Positions 1-8,983 of a stretch of 26,287 nt of DNA are shown piece by piece. The stretch comes from a virus. The stretch's first letter is position 1, and each line of letters opens with the position of its first letter. The notes under the pieces are model-generated. The model did no database searches and was not told where the DNA came from. It saw only the letters and a list, made by a program, of their open reading frames with translations. The position numbers and the translations under genes are program-made. The DNA is taken from the IMG/VR virus record IMGVR_UViG_3300005086_000113, positions 1 to 26,287 of that record; one strand, 5' to 3'.

Positions 1-1669
1 CAAATAGCGAAGCATTTAATGCCGTAGCATTCTGAACCCAGGTACCAATTTGTGACGCTGGTGCTAGGTTGGTAATTTTCCATATAGTTCCATCTGACCG
101 GAATTCTAGTCCACCTTCTGCACCTAGTTCACTAGTAACATTAACACTTAAAATGGAAGATAATGGTAAACTAACATTCCCGCCGCCGGGCTTAGTTGAA
201 TATGGATTTTCGTCAATTACAATATATTTTGCTTCTTCTGGCGTTGTTGTATCTAAATACACTTCGTTAACTGTGCTTGCATCGAGTTCGCTTTCGTCGG
301 TTGTGTAAAAACCAAAACTAAATGATCGAGGATATTGATTTTCTCCTGCTTTAGCAGTTAACACAAACTGCAAAACAAATGATTCTTCGTCATAATCAAT
401 TGCGTCGGTATTTACTGAAAGCGTCTTATCTGTTAAAGTAACATACGGCGGAAGTGCGCTATTGTCTGGAACAATAACTTCTGTTACTGTGTCGCTTACT
501 GACAAGACAACTTCATGTGTGCCACTATTTTTCTTAAAGTTTGCAATTCGTCCAGATGACGTAAACCAAACTTCGCCGTAATATCTGTTTGGTACATGCG
601 CCAATACGTTGTTTGTTCCTGCTTCTGCCATGTCTGCTGGAAGATATAGAACGTCTTGTAAACCGTAGCTAACAATTTCACTCTTAATGTAAAGTGCATG
701 TTTTGCAGGATCTTTTTCGATGAACATTGCTGCAACAGCAGAAATGATTGCAGCCGATACACTAGTACCACTTGCTGGCGAAACAGTTCCGTCTAACGCT
801 GCAACTGGAACGTCAACACCTGGTGCAAACATGTCAATTTCTGCTCCATAGTTAGGACCAGCTGTACCAGCACTAATCGCCGATGCGTTGTTATTATAAG
901 CAACACCACGATCGTATTCGTCGCTAGCTGCAACAGTAATAATGTCATTAATACCTGCAGGACTAAATTCGTTAACAGGACGATCGTCGTTGCCTGCGGC
1001 AGCAACCATAACAAGGTTTTTGTTAAGTAGTTCGATCACTTTAAGATCTAGCAAGTCGTTTTTAGCAATATTCCACGACATGTTAACTACTTTAGCCTGG
1101 TCAGCAGTAGCTAAGTGATCAGATAAAATTGCATCAAACGCATCAAGTAAGTCTGCTAATGTAGTAGAATGTGACGGGTCTGTGATTTTAACATTCTTAA
1201 TTTTTGCTCCAGGAGCAACACCAACTGTTTTGCCTGCAATCAACGATGTCATTGCAGTTCCGTGACCTTTTTCATCATCGAACTTGCCAGCAACTACACT
1301 AAAAAGATCGCTAATGTCTGCATCAACAAGTTCTGGATGAGATTTGTCAATACCGCTGTCCATTACATATACAGTTGCTCCTTGGCCTGTGTACTTTGCA
1401 TCATATGTGTCGCGCAAAGGTAGCATTTTTGTTACAAGTCTTGCTTTGTGCCACGGCACTTCTGTTGTAAACATTTCGACTTTAACAGTCGGCGATTCTT
1501 TTGCTAATAAGCCAGGCACTTTGTTGATGTCGGCTGCTTTACCTTTTACTTCGAACGTAAAGTCTAAGTGTTTATGTTCTTTAACAATTTCAATTGACTT
1601 TTCTTCGAAGTATTTTTTAACATCATCGATGTTTTGCTTTCGGTCAATTACAATTAAATATTTTCTCAT
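1..1669 (-). CDS. Subtilisin-like serine protease (peptidase S8) with beta-rich C-terminal region; 3' end cut by window edge
   Basis: An open frame runs from ATG at 1669 to the window edge (556 codons, no stop), so the protein is C-terminally incomplete. Residues about 1-70 look like a subtilase pro-region (inhibitor I9-like: YLIVID start, a helix, and VKVEMF before the VPWHKARL junction). The catalytic domain shows Asp104 (VMDSGID, then SHPEL), His136 (KGHGTA), the oxyanion Asn227 (AAAGNDD) and the nucleophile Ser303 (SGTSVSAA). The usual Pro after GTSxA is replaced by Ala, which is unusual. No signal peptide is visible. The region after about residue 340 is rich in Thr, Ser and Val and looks like Ig/cadherin-type beta domains, as in tail adhesins. 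The start overlaps the stop of the PP-loop gene as ATGA, which implies translational coupling. The family assignment is firm. The role is inference: a virion-associated protease that cuts host surface proteins, or one that matures a phage protein. Confidence 0.92.
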   Translation of the reverse strand, partial: MRKYLIVIDRKQNIDDVKKYFEEKSIEIVKEHKHLDFTFEVKGKAADINKVPGLLAKESPTVKVEMFTTEVPWHKARLVTKMLPLRDTYDAKYTGQGATVYVMDSGIDKSHPELVDADISDLFSVVAGKFDDEKGHGTAMTSLIAGKTVGVAPGAKIKNVKITDPSHSTTLADLLDAFDAILSDHLATADQAKVVNMSWNIAKNDLLDLKVIELLNKNLVMVAAAGNDDRPVNEFSPAGINDIITVAASDEYDRGVAYNNNASAISAGTAGPNYGAEIDMFAPGVDVPVAALDGTVSPASGTSVSAAIISAVAAMFIEKDPAKHALYIKSEIVSYGLQDVLYLPADMAEAGTNNVLAHVPNRYYGEVWFTSSGRIANFKKNSGTHEVVLSVSDTVTEVIVPDNSALPPYVTLTDKTLSVNTDAIDYDEESFVLQFVLTAKAGENQYPRSFSFGFYTTDESELDASTVNEVYLDTTTPEEAKYIVIDENPYSTKPGGGNVSLPLSSILSVNVTSELGAEGGLEFRSDGTIWKITNLAPASQIGTWVQNATALNASLF

Positions 1670-2571
1670 TTTTTAACCCCAGATAGATTGGTTATTTCTT
1701 GTTTTAACAAATCATTTAAAATCAATTTTATTGGCAAGTCTGGATACCTTGTTTCTATTGGTTTTCTAAACAATTTGTCAAACATTCTTACAGTATGTTG
1801 TTCATTATATTTATCAGAATAATATCGTTTTATATTTTCAAATCCGGTATATTTAGTGCGGCGATCAGTAACAAAACCGCCAGCTTCTATCAAAAAGTGC
1901 TTTGCACGAAATACACTTGCACCATGATATCCATGCTCATGCAGTTTTTTGTGTGCTTTTAATGTAGATGCAATTATACCAGGTGATGCCACACCCATAT
2001 TACCGATACCTTTCTTCCCTGTTAATGCAAGATAACGGTAATAGCACATATACATGTAATTTTTAAACAAACTTAATTTTCCGTCTATTAATGTAACTAA
2101 GTCTCCACCAAGAACAACAAAATCGTCGATTTGGTCCATTAGCCACATATGACAACATAATTGCGGACTGCGACATTTATAACGGTCTGCATATAATATG
2201 AAGTCGCCGGATTCTAAAAAACTAGGCAAGTCAAGGTCGTAAAATTGATAACTTACATTATTCTTCTCGCAATACTTTAATGCGTATTCGTAATCATAAT
2301 CGTTCATTGGCTTTCCGTCGATTATGTATCTCATTATAGCAGCTTCGTATTTTTTATTTGTTTCCTTTAATGCTTCTAAGACAATTTCGCTGTCAATCCC
2401 GCCACTATACAAAACAACAATCTTATCTGCGTCAACTTTATTTAATACGTTAACGTATTCGTCTTTAACTGACCCTATAGTATTTGGGTCATAAACACAG
2501 CCACTAAGATTTATGTTTACAACATCAGCTTGCTCGTCAACTTTTATAAAATCATGTATAGTGTATTGCAT
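1666..2571 (-). CDS. PP-loop ATPase (adenine nucleotide alpha-hydrolase / asparagine-synthase-like fold)
   Basis: This 301-residue protein carries a PP-loop signature at residues 56-61 (SGGIDS), preceded by the strand KIVVLY and followed by the helix EIVLEALKE. Proteins of this fold adenylate a carboxylate, carbonyl or nucleobase with release of PPi (asparagine synthetase B, QueC, TilS, NAD synthetase and others). The acidic DSEIVLEAL context recalls asparagine-synthase-like domains, but no glutaminase domain is present, so ammonia or another nucleophile would be needed. The middle contains a Cys pair (RSPQLCCHMW) and a GGDLV segment. The start overlaps the upstream gene by 20 bases and has only a weak ribosome site, and the stop overlaps the protease start (ATGA). 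It lies downstream of several glycosyltransferases, so sugar or peptide amidation is possible. The substrate cannot be read from the sequence. Confidence 0.8.
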   Translation of the reverse strand: MQYTIHDFIKVDEQADVVNINLSGCVYDPNTIGSVKDEYVNVLNKVDADKIVVLYSGGIDSEIVLEALKETNKKYEAAIMRYIIDGKPMNDYDYEYALKYCEKNNVSYQFYDLDLPSFLESGDFILYADRYKCRSPQLCCHMWLMDQIDDFVVLGGDLVTLIDGKLSLFKNYMYMCYYRYLALTGKKGIGNMGVASPGIIASTLKAHKKLHEHGYHGASVFRAKHFLIEAGGFVTDRRTKYTGFENIKRYYSDKYNEQHTVRMFDKLFRKPIETRYPDLPIKLILNDLLKQEITNLSGVKK

Positions 2572-3604
2572 TTTTTAAATTCAATTCCCATTGGCTTTGC
2601 AATGTTTTTAGCAATTGCTTGTTGTATATGTGCAACTCTTTATCATAACTAATATTACTATTTAGTAATTCTTCTGCACAATCTAATGCAGCACTTAATC
2701 TAACATCGTCGCCCAAGTTATCATAATCACTGTCGAATTCTTTGGCAATTTTAAACCCTAAGCGTTTTAAAAACTTTAGATAATGCTTGTTTGAAATTAC
2801 AACAAACGGGTGCCCGTTGTCGAACACTTTCCATGTTTTTTCAGTAGGGAATAAAAAATCTCCGTAATATGTGGTTTCTGTAATGACACTAAATAGCGAT
2901 TCGTCCCACAAATTAGTTGGAATTGTATTTTGGTCGGTGAAGCGTGTATTTGTATTTAAAAACACATTGTCGACAGACATGACAATATTTTGTTCAACGA
3001 AGTTTCGCTGTTCATCTGTTAATAAACTTCGATAACTTTTTATTATTTGCTTAGGGCTTGTTCTTAATGTATTGAAACTAATGTAATTATTTGTTAATTT
3101 TCGTCGTATTAGCTCAATCATCACGCTAACACGATGTGGCCTAACTGTGCCGTTTAAACACATAAATTTATTTTGTGTTCCTTTTGCTAAATTATTTCTA
3201 GCAATAGGGTTAGACGAAAGATACCAACGAAGCGTGTCGTTATAGTGTACATATTTGCATACACATGTCTTGTCTTTATAATTCCCTAATACAAAAACAA
3301 TGTTATTAATGTCTACATCTGCAGCTTCAGCGCATAGCAAAACAATTTTCTCTAAATCGTATGTTCTATTACCGATGCCTTGTGTTTGTGATATTGGTGT
3401 AGGTTCGATCGAACGCTCTAATACTATTTTTTTACCTTTATGGTGTTTAAGCAATCGAGTAAACGACATTTTGCTGACTGGCAATTCAGGTTCGAACATC
3501 ATGCTAGTTGTTCGTTTTGTGTTTATGTCAACTACAATACAACCCGGCACCAAACGCCTAAACGAATGGTGCCTTTCTATCAATTGTGGGTGTACATTAG
3601 ACAT
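2552..3604 (-). CDS. Probable GT-B-like glycosyltransferase
   Basis: The 350-residue protein has a mid-protein segment MCLNGTVRPHR (about 148-158) followed by a basic helix. Its C-terminal part contains FPTEKTWKVFDNGHPFVVIS (about 252-271) and then a helix with KFLKRLGFK. A TEK(T/L)-x(5)-G-PFV segment followed by a 'LGFK..' stretch is typical of the donor-binding half of fucosyltransferase/exostosin-like GT-B enzymes and of related phage proteins. This is motif resemblance seen by eye, not a proven assignment. The start ATG at 3604 has no good Shine-Dalgarno sequence, and it lies 13 bases from the stop of the preceding transferase. The 3' end overlaps the PP-loop gene by 20 bases. The context (three DAD-type transferases upstream) supports a sugar-transfer role. 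Confidence 0.55.
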   Translation of the reverse strand: MSNVHPQLIERHHSFRRLVPGCIVVDINTKRTTSMMFEPELPVSKMSFTRLLKHHKGKKIVLERSIEPTPISQTQGIGNRTYDLEKIVLLCAEAADVDINNIVFVLGNYKDKTCVCKYVHYNDTLRWYLSSNPIARNNLAKGTQNKFMCLNGTVRPHRVSVMIELIRRKLTNNYISFNTLRTSPKQIIKSYRSLLTDEQRNFVEQNIVMSVDNVFLNTNTRFTDQNTIPTNLWDESLFSVITETTYYGDFLFPTEKTWKVFDNGHPFVVISNKHYLKFLKRLGFKIAKEFDSDYDNLGDDVRLSAALDCAEELLNSNISYDKELHIYNKQLLKTLQSQWELNLKNAIHYT

Positions 3605-3617
3605 TACACTTGTAAAT

Positions 3618-4619
3618 CTATTTATTAAGTCGTCTTAATTCTTCCATTTCTGCTTCAGTAACATAAACGCCTGTTCGTGGGACACCGTTGTATGTCTTTT
3701 TAAAGAATTTGCTATCGTTTTCGTCTAACTCAGAAATTTCTAATTTTAGGTCACGACGCAAAATGTCGCCAAGTCGTTTAATTTCGGACATAAGCAGATC
3801 GTTGTCCCATGCATAATCTGTTCTGTGACATTTGTGTTTGCTGTCTTCCTTGGCAAACTTAGGTGCAATTTCATTGTGCCACATATTATTTAAGTATTTA
3901 AAATCGCGCACATTAACAAAGTCCCAATCTGTTAATGTTGTCATATAACAACCCAGTCTTGCACCATACATTGCCCACAAGCCATTTTCGACATCAGCGC
4001 CCACGCTACACCAAACAAGCAATCGTTGATAATTGCCATACCAAATTGTTTCTTCAAATCTTTCCGGTGGGACACGTCCGCCTTTAACTGTGTCAAGGCT
4101 CATTTTAACACCTTCTCTAAATCCAGCACGAAATGCTTGATGTGGCGATCCATTGTTATATGTAACACAATAACGATTGTTCATTTGTACATAGCTTTCT
4201 TCCCAACAAAAATCAACTTGTGCTTTTATATCGTCGGGGTCTGCTGCTTCATGTGACTTCATTTCTAGCACATATTTAACTGGCCAACATTTTAGACCGC
4301 CGTTGCCGTATTCTAATGCATTGATTGCATTTCTTGCGCTCCAGCTAACAACTTTGTCTTTAAACTTTTCATGCTCGAAATCAATTTCTTGGTCAAAGAA
4401 TTCGATGTCAACAATGTTGTCTGCGTCAACACTAATAAAACGATCAGTTTCTGATAATTTCGCTGCCGCTTTGTGTGCTGCGTCACTGCCGTCGACGCCA
4501 TGAACGCGCTTAGCCCACGGCACTTTTTGTAATAAATCTGCATAGTTTTCGTCTGCGTTTGGTTCGTCATAGCTAATAAAAATTACATCTAGCATTGTAA
4601 GTGGTGTAGGTTCTGACAT
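3618..4619 (-). CDS. Glycosyltransferase-like protein with DAD motif
   Basis: The 333-residue protein opens with LDVIFISYDEPNADENY (about 10-26), then VPWAKRVHGVDG, and an ISVDADN motif at about 62-68 (Asp65 and Asp67 as the DxD metal/sugar-nucleotide site). This order of a beta strand with an SYDEPNA signature, a PWAKRVHG segment and DAD fits a compact GT-A fold transferase seen in T4-like marine phages. The remaining part contains GGLKCWPVKYVLEM and many aromatic residues, and the C-terminus is charged and helical (TEAEMEELRRLNK). The start at 4619 has a clear ribosome site (GGAG, seven bases upstream). The gene follows the 211-residue unknown by 22 bases. Transferase class is likely. Donor and acceptor are unknown. 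Confidence 0.68.
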   Translation of the reverse strand: MSEPTPLTMLDVIFISYDEPNADENYADLLQKVPWAKRVHGVDGSDAAHKAAAKLSETDRFISVDADNIVDIEFFDQEIDFEHEKFKDKVVSWSARNAINALEYGNGGLKCWPVKYVLEMKSHEAADPDDIKAQVDFCWEESYVQMNNRYCVTYNNGSPHQAFRAGFREGVKMSLDTVKGGRVPPERFEETIWYGNYQRLLVWCSVGADVENGLWAMYGARLGCYMTTLTDWDFVNVRDFKYLNNMWHNEIAPKFAKEDSKHKCHRTDYAWDNDLLMSEIKRLGDILRRDLKLEISELDENDSKFFKKTYNGVPRTGVYVTEAEMEELRRLNK

Positions 4620-4641: not shown

Positions 4642-5277
4642 TTATTTTTTGTAGTTTATGCAATAGTTATCAAATATTTTTGTTGCGTATATGCTAAATC
4701 TGGATGGAACTTCGTATTCAATTTCTACTTTGTCATTTACTAACTCTTCGACACTAACTGCAAGCTCGCGGTGCAGAGCATCGGGATTTTTTTCTGCTGT
4801 TATAAAAAAGTATAACATTTGTCGGCCGGCAATATGATACTTTTCATTTGTGTTTTCTAGTATTTCATTTTTAATTTTGTCTGACAATTCAAACACAAAT
4901 TTGTCTTTGTAGATGTTGATTTTTAATCCGTAATCACCGTCACTATTGTGGCGTATTTCAGTTAAATAGTTTTCTGGTCCGCGAAAGTAAGTTTCATTAC
5001 TAGCTTTTTTAATAATTACATATTTTGCAATTTTGCCTTTTCTGAGCTTTACAATGTACTCGCTTGGATTTATTTCGCCGCTAATAAATCTCTTAACACT
5101 ACTAACAGGAAACTTTGTTACCGAAAACTTTGCTGACATGTTTTCGTCTTCAATTGGTGTTATACATTTAATATTGCCGTGGTCATCAAAGTACACAAAC
5201 ATTCTTTGTTCGTCGGAACTTTGCTGTCTGTGTGCTGCTAAAGCGTTACTAAATGTTGTTGATTTCTTTTCGGCCAT
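4642..5277 (-). CDS. Unrecognised protein, 211 aa
   Basis: I do not recognise this family. The protein begins with a Lys/Ser/Thr-rich segment (MAEKKSTTFSNALAAHRQQ), has a strand-rich middle (RMFVYFDDHGNIKCITP; KYVIIKKASNETYF; GLKINIYKDKFVFEL) and ends in SIYATKIFDNYCINYKK. No signal peptide, membrane segment or catalytic motif is visible. The start ATG at 5277 is supported by GGAG upstream and lies inside the end of the preceding glycosyltransferase gene (29-base overlap). The stop is 22 bases before the next transferase. It is clearly expressed with the sugar-transfer module. An accessory or structural role in that module is possible but unproven. The gene itself is secure because of its length, spacing and ribosome site. 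Confidence 0.75.
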   Translation of the reverse strand: MAEKKSTTFSNALAAHRQQSSDEQRMFVYFDDHGNIKCITPIEDENMSAKFSVTKFPVSSVKRFISGEINPSEYIVKLRKGKIAKYVIIKKASNETYFRGPENYLTEIRHNSDGDYGLKINIYKDKFVFELSDKIKNEILENTNEKYHIAGRQMLYFFITAEKNPDALHRELAVSVEELVNDKVEIEYEVPSRFSIYATKIFDNYCINYKK

Positions 5278-6103
5278 TATATAATTTCTCCATTAACTGA
5301 ATATGTTCTTCTGTAAGCCACGATTTTATATGATAGTGAATTGGCGCTGTTTGTAAATAATTTCCGATTTTTATATTGCTGTCGTTATCTATATATGTGG
5401 GTATGTGCTTATTCCATTCTTCTGTAATAAATTGCATTGGAACTTCTTGCAACTTGCTTTTCATATGAACAAAAGTAGGATATTCGCTGTCAAGTCTAAT
5501 GTCATGTATTTTGGCACTAATTGCAAACACTGCGTCGCCGCTAACCGGTGCTTCTCCAATTGGTGCAAATTCTCGTTTATAATCTTCCCAGTTATGATAT
5601 ATGTTTTTACATGTCTCAAAAAATGCTTTTGCATTTTTTGTCTTTTTAAAATAGAAGAAAGCAGTGTACACATTGGGTAAATTATTGTTTCGAAACAAAC
5701 TGCGATATGCATTGTCTTTTGCATACCTTCCTTTGAAATTTAAAACTTTATTTGTATAATATATGTTGTGTTCAGACAAAAAATCCCACCAATGAGAAAT
5801 ATCAGTTGTAAACACCATGTCTGCGTCTAGAATAACAGTTTCGTCAAACGGAGACATTTCGTAATATTTCCATTTGTTGTTTATCTTCCAGGTCGAATCT
5901 TTTGCCTCGTCGTTAGGTATTTCGATAATATAATCAAAAACGTGCCTGTATTGTGTTGGCACACAATCGCGACTTTCTACACACACAGCAAAATTATTAA
6001 CACCTTTTTGTGTTAACTTTATGCTAAGTGCTAAAGCATAAGCCTGTTTAATATAATCAACAGATCCGCTGTTTTGTGCAAGTGTTATATACCCTCTGGC
6101 CAC
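5249..6103 (-). CDS. Glycosyltransferase, GT-A type with DAD motif (paralogue of the next gene upstream)
   Basis: The 284-residue protein starts with MARGYITLAQN and SVDYIKQAYALALSIK. It carries KYYEMSPFDETVILDADMVF with the catalytic DxD at Asp93-Ala-Asp95. The pattern of N-terminal strand, donor-binding helix and 'S P x D E T x x x D A D' resembles GT8/GT-A retaining transferases. It matches the upstream 302-residue protein in the same places (AYELSPYDETLFIDAD), so the two are tandem paralogues. A later segment, APIGEAPVSGDAVFAI, corresponds to FRNDWAFAI in the paralogue and may bind the acceptor. The start is GTG at 6103, with AAGGAG seven bases upstream. The gene overlaps its upstream neighbour by 19 bases and its downstream neighbour by 29. 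Donor sugar and target are unknown. Confidence 0.78.
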   Translation of the reverse strand: MARGYITLAQNSGSVDYIKQAYALALSIKLTQKGVNNFAVCVESRDCVPTQYRHVFDYIIEIPNDEAKDSTWKINNKWKYYEMSPFDETVILDADMVFTTDISHWWDFLSEHNIYYTNKVLNFKGRYAKDNAYRSLFRNNNLPNVYTAFFYFKKTKNAKAFFETCKNIYHNWEDYKREFAPIGEAPVSGDAVFAISAKIHDIRLDSEYPTFVHMKSKLQEVPMQFITEEWNKHIPTYIDNDSNIKIGNYLQTAPIHYHIKSWLTEEHIQLMEKLYNGRKEINNI

Positions 6104-6993
6104 AACGACTCCTTATATATTTCTATCAATTTATCAGAATTTCTTAATAGACCAAACTTATTCATAACGTGAACATCGACATCTTTAACATTACTTAGCA
6201 CAAATCCGCCCGCATCTGGTGCTTGTAACATAAACACCAAATCATTTATTCCGTTTACACTAATTAAATCGTCGTGGTCAAATACTTTTAACAATCCGCC
6301 AGCAAGAGGTATACGCGGAACCAATGTGCAATCTTTAAAACCATTATACTCGTGTACTGCTATTGCAAAAGCCCAATCGTTTCTAAACATTCCATTGGGG
6401 AAGTTATACCTTTGTTTATAGAAATTATAATTGTCTAGTACGTGCTTGACTTTGTCAAATATGCTTTTTGCTTCTAGTGATTTCTTAAAGTAAACAACAG
6501 TTGCCCAATAAAGCCTTATACTAAACGGATCAATCCATTTGCTAATTGACTCTCGATTAAAATATGCTTCTTGCATATTGTCACAAATCATAAAATTATG
6601 TACTGAACCCCAGCAGCACTTTAGCGCATCGCTTTGTATTAAGTAGTCTGCGTCGATAAACAATGTTTCGTCATACGGTGACAGTTCGTATGCTTTATAG
6701 TGGTTATAATTTAAAAACTGCAACGACGAAGAGTCTTTGTTTGCGTCGCGATAGGTCCGACGATTGCTTCGCTTATTACTGTCAATTGAACTGTCAACAA
6801 TAATGTTGTCAAAAAGCTTATCTAAAAATTTCTTTTCGAACTGTGCTTTTGCATTGTTGTATGTTTTTTGATCTACAACAACACTCACTGGAACTCGAAG
6901 ATTTTTCCGAACCATAAGCGAATTTACAACAGCGATTTTAAAATAATCGACTTTCTCGTTGTTGTGTGCAAACATAATAACGCCGCGAGACAT
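6085..6993 (-). CDS. Glycosyltransferase, GT-A type with DAD motif
   Basis: The 302-residue protein begins with SRGVIMFAHNNEKVDYFKIA, has AYELSPYDETLFIDADYL with DxD at Asp114-Ala-Asp116, and contains MFRNDWAFAIAVHEYNG further on. The start, the DAD block and the downstream 'W/V-FAI' block line up with the next gene, which indicates a duplication. An Arg/Asn/Asp-rich insertion (about 71-90, SNKRSNRRTYRDANKDSSS) distinguishes this copy. The start ATG at 6993 has GAGG upstream and overlaps the preceding stop by one base (TAATG). It is probably a soluble cytoplasmic enzyme with no membrane helix. It could glycosylate virion proteins, DNA or host glycans, and the sequence does not decide between these. 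Confidence 0.78.
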   Translation of the reverse strand: MSRGVIMFAHNNEKVDYFKIAVVNSLMVRKNLRVPVSVVVDQKTYNNAKAQFEKKFLDKLFDNIIVDSSIDSNKRSNRRTYRDANKDSSSLQFLNYNHYKAYELSPYDETLFIDADYLIQSDALKCCWGSVHNFMICDNMQEAYFNRESISKWIDPFSIRLYWATVVYFKKSLEAKSIFDKVKHVLDNYNFYKQRYNFPNGMFRNDWAFAIAVHEYNGFKDCTLVPRIPLAGGLLKVFDHDDLISVNGINDLVFMLQAPDAGGFVLSNVKDVDVHVMNKFGLLRNSDKLIEIYKESLWPEGI

Positions 6994-7417: not shown

Positions 7418-7999
7418 TTACGATATAAACGGCGATGCTTCTGTTGAATATCGACGCTCATCGATGTAAACAGTTAATGTTCCATCTACAGCTTCGTCGA
7501 TGGTGCCATCGGCACCGTCTACAACAAAAATTCTAAATTCGATGCTAATTGGCCCTGCAATTCTCGCTGATATAGTTAACGAATCATTGCTATAAACGCC
7601 AGTTCCCGATGCAGTTAAAATTGGTTGAAAAGATGTGGTTAAAGCTGAATACCCAATTGGATTTGCTGTTCCAACAGTACCCGAACGTGTAGTGGTTGTT
7701 TGTCCAAATGCTAATACACCAACATTGCTTAACATATTAGAAATTGATGCATTTTGGTTATTGGGTGTTGCGCCAGTATGCGAAAATGTTAGACGAATTT
7801 GTCCACCAGTTGCGAAGTAATCGTCTCTTGCTTGGCCGCTTGCAAAAGTTACATTAAATGTTGTGTCATTTGGACTTGTCCAATTTGCTGACTTAGCAAG
7901 TATGGCTAATGTCCCGCCACTAGTTGTCACAAACGAAGCAAAGTCGCCTGCCTTTATTAACCCAGAAGTTAACTTAACACCACTTATTTTTATAACCAT
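7418..7999 (-). CDS. Tail-fibre/adhesin-like protein, 193 aa, shares a domain with the 312-aa neighbour
   Basis: The protein is small-residue-rich (Thr, Ser, Gly, Ala) and strand-rich with no catalytic motif. Its body matches the C-terminal half of the upstream 312-residue protein in order. YFATGGQIRLTFSHTG aligns with YFFNSGGEIRWSGNYT, IGYSALTTSFQPI with LGYYGLTTSYSII, and TISARI with VLSARL. Both finish with a 'DGTLTVYIDERR' or 'NGTLTSNVDQRK' motif. This copy lacks the N-terminal segment of the longer one. It has its own late-type promoter box 24 bases upstream. A receptor-binding or decoration domain is the likely role, by inference from composition and location next to other fibre-like genes. 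Confidence 0.7.
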   Translation of the reverse strand: MVIKISGVKLTSGLIKAGDFASFVTTSGGTLAILAKSANWTSPNDTTFNVTFASGQARDDYFATGGQIRLTFSHTGATPNNQNASISNMLSNVGVLAFGQTTTTRSGTVGTANPIGYSALTTSFQPILTASGTGVYSNDSLTISARIAGPISIEFRIFVVDGADGTIDEAVDGTLTVYIDERRYSTEASPFIS

Positions 8000-8044: not shown

Positions 8045-8983
8045 TTAGCTACCGCTAAAGACTACTGTGGTGTATGTTGGTTCTGTGACAACAATTTGGC
8101 CGACACTTTTTCTTTGATCAACATTACTAGTCAGTGTACCGTTTAATACACGATCGGCAGCCGGGTCAGTAATAAATTCAACTTTTATACGAACTACATT
8201 AGCACTTGCATTTGTTAGTCTTGCACTTAGCACTATTTGTTCGCCGGCGTATGTAGTATTATAAACACCACCTGTAACAATTGTTTTTACATTAATAATC
8301 GAATATGATGTTGTTAATCCATAATATCCTAGAGACTGTTGAAGGCCTGAGCCAGATGTTGCATAGTTTGCACCAATTGTTACTGTTTGTATTGCAGCAA
8401 TGCTACTGCTCCACGCCGTTTCTTCGGAAGACTCGTCTGGTGTTCCTGGTGTATAATTACCCGACCAACGAATTTCGCCGCCCGAATTAAAAAAGTATCT
8501 TGCTTCGTCTACGTTTGCAAAGCTAACATCAAACTCATGCACAACACTATTTGTCCAGCTTTGTGTTCTAACTTCTGACAACTTGGCGCCACCTGAAGTA
8601 ACTGCCGCTTCTGCAGGTGCTATATTAAGTCTGTTGCCCCTAATGTCATTTATGACATTTGGTAACCCGCCCGCACCAACTAGTGCTTCAATTAAATTGC
8701 CTGCTGATACACTTTGCGGCACAGACCCAGTGCCAATGCCTTGATGTGTTGCACATTTATGAAGTGCGTCAAACAAAGTCGTCCATTGTGCAGCAGTTAT
8801 TAAGTCTCCTGACGAAACTAAAGGAATTTCTGGAATTTGTCCATATCCATAATCGCCAACTCCGGGTGTTCTGTTACCAGGGTGAGCATCACCATACACT
8901 TCATTAATCAGTGTTGCAAGCTCGTTGTAATCGTCAAGCGAAAGCCCGTTGGCTTCGATTATTTCTCCTGGTTGATAAGCCAT
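8045..8983 (-). CDS. Tail-fibre/adhesin-like structural protein, 312 aa
   Basis: The N-terminal part (about 1-110) contains YQPGEIIEANGLSLDDYNELATLINEVYGD, a GDYGYGQIP segment, then DLITAAQWTTLFDALHKCATHQG. This type of 'I t a s h w n . L . . a l n k' segment is common in phage tail-associated proteins and probably forms a helical attachment region. The C-terminal part (from about 150) is strand-rich and is shared with the 193-residue protein downstream. The gene starts at 8983, one base after the preceding stop, with TAGGAG upstream. Its location among baseplate and fibre-like genes suggests a short fibre or distal tail component. Specific function is not identifiable. Confidence 0.72.
   Translation of the reverse strand: MAYQPGEIIEANGLSLDDYNELATLINEVYGDAHPGNRTPGVGDYGYGQIPEIPLVSSGDLITAAQWTTLFDALHKCATHQGIGTGSVPQSVSAGNLIEALVGAGGLPNVINDIRGNRLNIAPAEAAVTSGGAKLSEVRTQSWTNSVVHEFDVSFANVDEARYFFNSGGEIRWSGNYTPGTPDESSEETAWSSSIAAIQTVTIGANYATSGSGLQQSLGYYGLTTSYSIINVKTIVTGGVYNTTYAGEQIVLSARLTNASANVVRIKVEFITDPAADRVLNGTLTSNVDQRKSVGQIVVTEPTYTTVVFSGS

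Follow-up and report, generated by a model that had tools for sequence, protein, structure and literature searches.

A PP-loop enzyme gene and a subtilisin-type protease gene kept side by side in viral records: a probable two-part protein-processing system

On the minus strand of the virus record IMGVR_UViG_3300005086_000113, which was analysed over its full length of 26,287 bp and is referred to here as the window, the stop codon of a gene encoding a PP-loop (N-type ATP pyrophosphatase) protein and the start codon of a gene encoding an S8 (subtilisin-type) protease share a single ATGA, as had been described in an initial annotation made from the letters of the window. This arrangement raises the question of whether the two genes are chance neighbors or belong together and, in the latter case, what their products may act upon.

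The gene pair and its surroundings in the window

The PP-loop protein was assigned to its superfamily on the basis of an SGGxDS motif and the HUP-type fold of its AlphaFold model (pLDDT 83, pTM 0.86). The SGGIDS motif varies little among its relatives, and residues S56, G57, G58, and D60 are invariant in both the 15- and the 12-member alignments, as are K240, G243, and E245 in the 12-member alignment. It is treated as a member of an unnamed family because all Pfam and NCBIfam models remained below their cut-offs, the protein yielding sub-threshold matches to PP-loop families, among them QueC (PF06508; 17.6 versus 22 bits) and the NCBIfam models of NAD synthase, TilS, MnmA, and LarE (15 to 23 versus 64 to 284 bits). 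Asn_synthase (PF00733) was not among the listed matches of the window protein, and its homologue in locus L114 scored 18 versus 21 bits; among 15 family members, eight weakly matched PF06508 and two PF00733. The best solved-structure matches of the model were LarE, NcsA, MnmA, TilS, and NadE, carbapenam synthetase (1q15) giving the highest query TM-score of the PDB matches listed (0.43), and most of its nearest counterparts in a viral structure library (TM up to 0.73) are uncharacterised and come from uncultured phages. When the family was compared by hhalign with AsnB, NadE, QueC, and MnmA, only residues 30 to 119, in the N-terminal part, aligned with AsnB, and MnmA scored higher.

The partner protein belongs to Peptidase S8 (PF00082; 1.6e-26, 93.8 bits versus a cut-off of 21.8), retains D104, H136, the oxyanion asparagine N227, and S303, and also matches PHROG 3677 (2e-44), aqualysin, and proteinase K. 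Its stop codon is not visible because the window is the entire record, past the edge of which the open reading frame (ORF) runs. Beyond the catalytic domain and the N-terminal part, the full-length AlphaFold model is poor; the N-terminal part is modelled as strands at residues 2-8, 27-31, 38-43, and 54-58 and helices at residues 14-23 and 45-48, and may serve as a propeptide. No obvious signal peptide was found at the N terminus of the protease, and its site of action is, therefore, probably intracellular or in the virion.

Upstream, the start of the PP-loop gene is overlapped by 20 bp by a 350-aa ORF, and the gene is, therefore, part of a chain of overlapping genes. Placement of the pair at the end of a glycosyltransferase operon, as originally suggested, was not confirmed: the candidates carry DxD-like motifs (DADN, DADM, and DADY) and have no Pfam or PDB profile match, one of them matches a PHROG to which no function is assigned, and the other loci in which the S8 and PP-loop genes are linked do not show the sugar-transferase context. 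The DADM and DADY ORFs (5249-6103 and 6085-6993) are tandem paralogues with 28% identity and a 19-bp overlap, possible glycosyltransferases without database support. Homologues of the DADN-bearing gene, gA, are present in PP-loop loci L114-L118 and L124-L128, and gA precedes another PP-loop gene in L124, L126, L127, and L128, in three of these four loci together with a 118-aa gene and a GT2 gene.

In its baseplate block (gp5, gp25, and gp6), the phage resembles T4; gp6, however, is nearest to its counterparts in the jumbo phages PA5oct (41%), Atu_ph07, and SCTP-2. Between this block and the gene pair lie tail-type genes and the overlapping-ORF chain. Two adjacent tail-type ORFs (7418-7999 and 8045-8983) fall into one homology cluster by way of proteins from L002 and L124 and are probable paralogues.

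Table 1. Features of the window and arrangements of the PP-loop (PP) and S8 genes in linked loci
Feature	Position or loci	Strand	Details
S8 (subtilisin-type) protease	2..1669	-	at least 556 aa; ATG at 1669, open to window edge
C-terminal beta-rich region of S8, from ~residue 341	2..650	-	low-confidence model
S8 catalytic domain, residues 70-333	671..1462	-	Pfam, catalytic residues, aqualysin/proteinase K matches
Catalytic Ser303 in GTSVSAA; Ala at Ser+4 (subtilisin Pro225 position)	749..769	-	alignment
N-terminal beta-alpha-beta domain of S8, residues 1-60, propeptide-like	1490..1669	-	AlphaFold, moderate confidence
ATGA, PP-loop gene stop and S8 gene start	1666..1669	-	from sequence
PP-loop (N-type ATP pyrophosphatase) protein	1666..2571	-	301 aa; unnamed family
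FDKLFRKP, residues 264-271	1759..1782	-	third signature (FxxxFRxP) of S8-linked PP-loop subfamily
KYTGFE, residues 240-245	1837..1854	-	second signature of S8-linked PP-loop subfamily
SPQLCCH, residues 135-141	2149..2169	-	signature of S8-linked PP-loop subfamily
SGGIDS, PP-loop motif, residues 56-61	2389..2406	-	within VLYSGGIDSE
350-aa ORF upstream of PP-loop gene	2552..3604	-	EKTWK motif; homologue in L110
gA, 333 aa, DADN motif	3618..4619	-	glycosyltransferase-like by motif alone
Two paralogous ORFs, 284 and 302 aa, DADM/DADY motifs	5249..6993	-	glycosyltransferase-like by motif alone
Arrangement: PP then S8, overlapping	window
Arrangement: divergent, ~80 bp between	L206, L207/208, L215/216		three lineages
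Arrangement: PP, opposite-strand gene, S8	L209-L212, L214		PP and S8 co-directional
Arrangement: S8, oxygenase-like gene, PP	L213
Arrangement: S8 then PP, 3 bp apart	L220

Association and parallel divergence of the two genes

Relatives of the PP-loop gene were sought by motif (VLYSGGIDSE and V[LF][YF]SGGID) and by alignment scans, which yielded 23 loci with roughly 17 to 36% identity, no isolate being among them; S8 genes were absent from all 22 searched virus records with related PP-loop genes. Peptide scans with single window proteins as queries returned no relatives. The view of the pairing as a one-off, to which the 22 S8-less records had led, was overturned by a scan from the protease side. 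The patterns of the PP-loop-side scan favor other subfamilies: most S8-linked PP-loop copies read [CM]LSGG[IL]DSQ.

An S8 alignment scan of IMG/VR produced 25 loci, in 12 of which, representing eight lineages, a PP-loop gene of the window's family lies at most 0.8 kb from the S8 gene; these 12 linked S8s are among those closest to the window protease (31 to 40% identity). A PP-loop gene of this family was absent anywhere in the remaining 13 records, which comprise 12 distant S8s and a fragment, L224, that is identical to L209 and cut inside the S8 gene. In IMG/VR, no intact S8 from the clade of the window protease was found without an adjacent PP-loop gene (12/12 records), which supports the suggestion that the two genes belong together. 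With near-duplicates collapsed, linkage by lineage is 8/8 versus 0/~12 (Fisher p ~1e-5), a contrast between loci from one S8 query whose S8 clade was named after the linkage had been seen. Each linked record holds one S8 gene and one PP-loop gene, with the exception of L220, which holds two PP-loop genes. The association is kept in records of 318 and 172 kb, in which the chance of adjacency within 3 kb is ~2-3%, and a rescan with the linked S8 set found nothing new and no exception to the linkage.

These counts come from pattern scans of one virus collection; which loci were sampled follows from the patterns chosen, and fragments make up most of the records. At the sensitivity of tblastn, searches of 50,697 phage isolate records did not turn up the pair, which would, therefore, be missed by isolate-based work; one family member was likewise not found in 72,556 plasmid records. 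No description of such a phage module was found in the open-access literature. Occurrence of either gene alone in unrelated contexts, which the initial annotation had held to speak against coupling, was seen for other subfamilies of both proteins and not for those of the window.

The ATGA overlap, in turn, proved not to be a conserved feature: the two genes are divergent in three lineages, separated by an intervening gene in four, and in reverse order in one (Table 1). It is proximity that is conserved instead, of which the overlap is one local form.

The linked S8s, including that of the window, form one clade (98/98 support), and the linkage label requires a single change on the S8 tree versus 6.6 with shuffled labels. 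On the PP-loop tree, the linked label is also clustered (3 changes versus 8.4), the window copy branching between the linked and the non-linked groups at a weakly supported node; the AU test did not reject a clade uniting it with the linked copies (p = 0.107; p = 0.42 when L119 was added). Three motifs, SPQxxxH, [KR]xTGFE, and FxxxFRxP, are common to the window and the S8-linked PP-loop proteins and nearly absent from 18 non-linked copies. The SPQ signature is present in the window and all eight S8-adjacent copies tested and in 1/18 non-linked copies (L119), [KR]xTGFE occurs in one non-linked copy (L122), and FxxxFRxP is confined to S8-linked copies, with variants in L207 (FNTRYRRP) and L220 (FDTLFRYS). 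The window protein, which possesses all three motifs and an adjacent S8, was assigned to the S8-linked PP-loop subfamily as defined in this analysis, its placement on the tree being weak.

Pairwise identities of the PP-loop and S8 proteins are correlated (Mantel r = 0.93, p = 0.0002; r = 0.88 with one near-duplicate dropped). Proximity kept through rearrangement, coupled with such parallel divergence, is predicted by functional coupling and not by a shared neighborhood alone. Loss of PP-loop or triad residues, envisaged earlier as evidence to the contrary, was not observed, the catalytic residues being kept in linked copies of both proteins. At the position equivalent to subtilisin 225 (Ser+4), 8/9 PP-linked S8s carry alanine or glycine, versus proline in 10/10 other aligned viral S8s.

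Only the S8 and PP-loop genes are common to all nine lineages: no third conserved family, and no ORF of at least 50 aa conserved beside all pairs, was found. Neighbor functions were taken from Pfam, PADLOC, and PHROG matches, several of which are below cut-off. Two oxygenase-type genes occur near the pair in four lineages, the first with a sub-threshold Asp/Asn-hydroxylase match and the second with a PADLOC 2OG match and, by eye, an HxD...H...R pattern, and a GNAT gene is likewise found near the pair in four. Acyl carrier protein (ACP), AMP-binding, and GNAT genes are present among S8-linked loci, and radical SAM genes near some pairs. In four lineages, represented by the window (baseplate genes), L206 and L207 (a PAAR protein), and L220 (tail tube), the pair has tail or structural genes nearby; no tail gene was recognised near the pair in the other five. 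PADLOC, applied to selected proteins, returned matches to its general subtilase model and weak matches to its IetS (4e-4) and QueC models. A small protein encoded near the pair in L209 (10699-11244, minus strand) has a signal-peptide-like start and, by eye, resembles an outer membrane barrel.

Possible function of the pair

The PP-loop and S8 proteins are probably an undescribed two-part protein-processing system, and the best reading of the sequence data is that of a two-enzyme protein- or peptide-modifying module. Specifically, we tentatively propose, at a little under an even chance, that the pair forms the two-component core of a module of large uncultured tailed phages whose members act in turn on one polypeptide. 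The two genes would be inherited together and kept adjacent despite changes in gene order; the PP-loop enzyme would adenylate a carboxylate with ATP and couple it to an amine or comparable group of this polypeptide or its precursor, and the subtilase, with its propeptide-like N-terminal domain, would cleave a phage or host protein. A tail or baseplate (virion) protein is the leading substrate candidate because the pair adjoins tail or structural genes in four lineages. We infer that both enzymes share a substrate, that it is a protein, and that it is of the virion, as well as the type of reaction. In addition to the association itself, the single S8 clade, the shared PP-loop motifs, and the parallel divergence, a protein- or peptide-modifying pair is favored by the propeptide-like domain, the Ser+4 change, the tail context, the precedent of Cap9 (see below), and the oxygenase-like and GNAT neighbors, which are of a protein-modifying type. 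Counted against it are the failure to find a third conserved gene, the five lineages in which no tail gene was recognised near the pair, the weak placement of the window copy on the PP-loop tree, the many related PP-loop proteins which occur without an S8, and the fact that oxygenase, GNAT, ACP, AMP-ligase, and radical SAM neighbors fit small-molecule synthesis too.

Such neighbors could indeed indicate that the pair lies within a cassette which makes or decorates a small molecule (a surface glycan, acylated sugar, or lipid), with an intermediate amidated by the PP-loop enzyme and the protease only activating a pathway enzyme. PP-loop relatives sit with TauD, fatty acid desaturase, radical SAM, and SDR genes, as well as ACP and Rieske genes, S8-linked loci contain ACP, AMP-binding, and GNAT genes, and the window has sugar-transferase-like neighbors. 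These neighbors, however, vary by lineage whereas the protease is present throughout the linked clade, and proteases are unusual in such pathways, which leaves this explanation somewhat unlikely. The tail context may also be read as a virion protease beside which the PP-loop gene is a mere neighbor, the two persisting as a mobile two-gene cassette or an inherited hotspot; the S8s of Phosso and Atu_ph07, located next to tail genes without a PP-loop gene, agree with this, as does the tail or structural context of the pair in four lineages. Absence of functional coupling is nevertheless considered unlikely, given that proximity is kept over several arrangements with largely non-homologous flanks and correlated divergence, and that the gene order of a mobile cassette would be expected to stay constant.

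A more elaborate form of the protein-modifying reading, which we regard as distinctly unlikely, is a viral cut-and-join machine in which the altered subtilase would form an acyl-enzyme with a target protein or expose one of its ends, to which an ATP-activated group supplied by the PP-loop enzyme would be joined, an undescribed modification kept by selection in large phages. A host-takeover or anti-defence role, in which the PP-loop enzyme would tag a host protein for removal by the protease, or the reverse, finds some encouragement in the use of QueC-type PP-loop proteins in CBASS and Qat defence and in the PADLOC matches to the general subtilase, IetS, and QueC models; as these matches reflect superfamilies only, and conservation next to the pair does not extend to any other defence-like gene, it appears less probable again. 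The enzyme classes also correspond to those of ribosomally derived peptide (RiPP) pathways, in which AsnB-like enzymes act on lasso peptides and subtilases on cyanobactins, and the Ser+4 change could suit an S8 maturase working with a PP-loop ligase. A RiPP system, however, is very improbable, no third ORF of at least 50 aa being conserved and the divergent pairs leaving only ~80 bp between the genes.

Among defence systems, IetAS combines an AAA ATPase with a subtilase and thus resembles the pair as a two-gene system with a subtilase, but here a PP-loop enzyme takes the place of the AAA ATPase, and the IetS model was matched only weakly (4e-4). The QueC-type PP-loop enzyme Cap9 of type IV CBASS conjugates CDG to a protein N terminus, and the same is proposed for QatC (PMC13279940). 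The window protein shares with both a PP-loop ATP pyrophosphatase domain, in enzymes that act (Cap9) or are proposed to act (QatC) on a protein N terminus (PMC13279940, PMC13329287), yet it falls below the QueC Pfam cut-off and is partnered by a protease, and no CD-NTase, Cap10, or QatA/B/D gene was recognised in the window, a fragment record. With asparagine synthetase, beta-lactam synthetase, and the synthetase domains of lasso-peptide C proteins, it shares the PP-loop fold, and its C-terminal K...RxKxxGxE recalls, by eye, the K...RxK of AsnB; unlike this group, it has no glutaminase domain.

With the S8s of the jumbo phages Atu_ph07 and Phosso (PHROG 3677), the protease has in common the catalytic domain, an extension at the N terminus, and additional domains at the C terminus. 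These jumbo phage enzymes differ in lying outside the linked clade (Atu_ph07 is L227), in keeping the Ser+4 proline, and in occurring without a PP-loop gene of the window's family. The Phosso (L005, 9512-13375) and Atu_ph07 (L007, 7560-11315) S8s are 1250-1290 aa in length, with long C-terminal extensions past the protease domain, and are encoded near tail genes. Subtiligase/peptiligase is an engineered subtilisin carrying S221C and P225A (PMC7921005), and the natural alanine or glycine at the Pro225 position in 8/9 linked S8s recalls the latter substitution. The linked S8s, however, keep the catalytic serine, and ligase activity is not implied; the Ser+4 change is thus a hint of altered S8 specificity and, because that serine is kept, no evidence of ligation.

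PP-loop enzymes have only recently been found to act as protein modifiers, as in Cap9, and a protease-coupled viral family would extend this idea to phages. Such a family would also provide a defined two-gene system in which to look for its substrate, and the marker motifs, together with the S8 clade, allow others to find it.

Additional observations on PP-loop gene loci

PP-loop cousins in Alphaproteobacteria MAGs are without the S8-linked motifs, and no function was assigned from them. At L133 (848-2937), an alphaproteobacterial cousin is followed by an ORF with a similar N terminus in which SGGIDS is replaced by a degenerate AGGPLA. Pairs of PP-loop genes from two subfamilies are located in biosynthetic-looking phage cassettes at L114 (6684-15463) and L124 (3789-14129); the former encodes TauD and Asp/Asn-hydroxylase-type oxygenases, a fatty acid desaturase, which is present in L124 also, and a B12-type radical SAM protein. 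At L110 (8727-9830) and L096 (1534-2640), an ORF which by eye resembles S-adenosylmethionine synthetase overlaps the start of a PP-loop gene that is not S8 linked. Acyl carrier protein genes lie near PP-loop genes at L214 (7760-7984) and L123 (9591-9815), that of L123 overlapping the PP-loop gene start.
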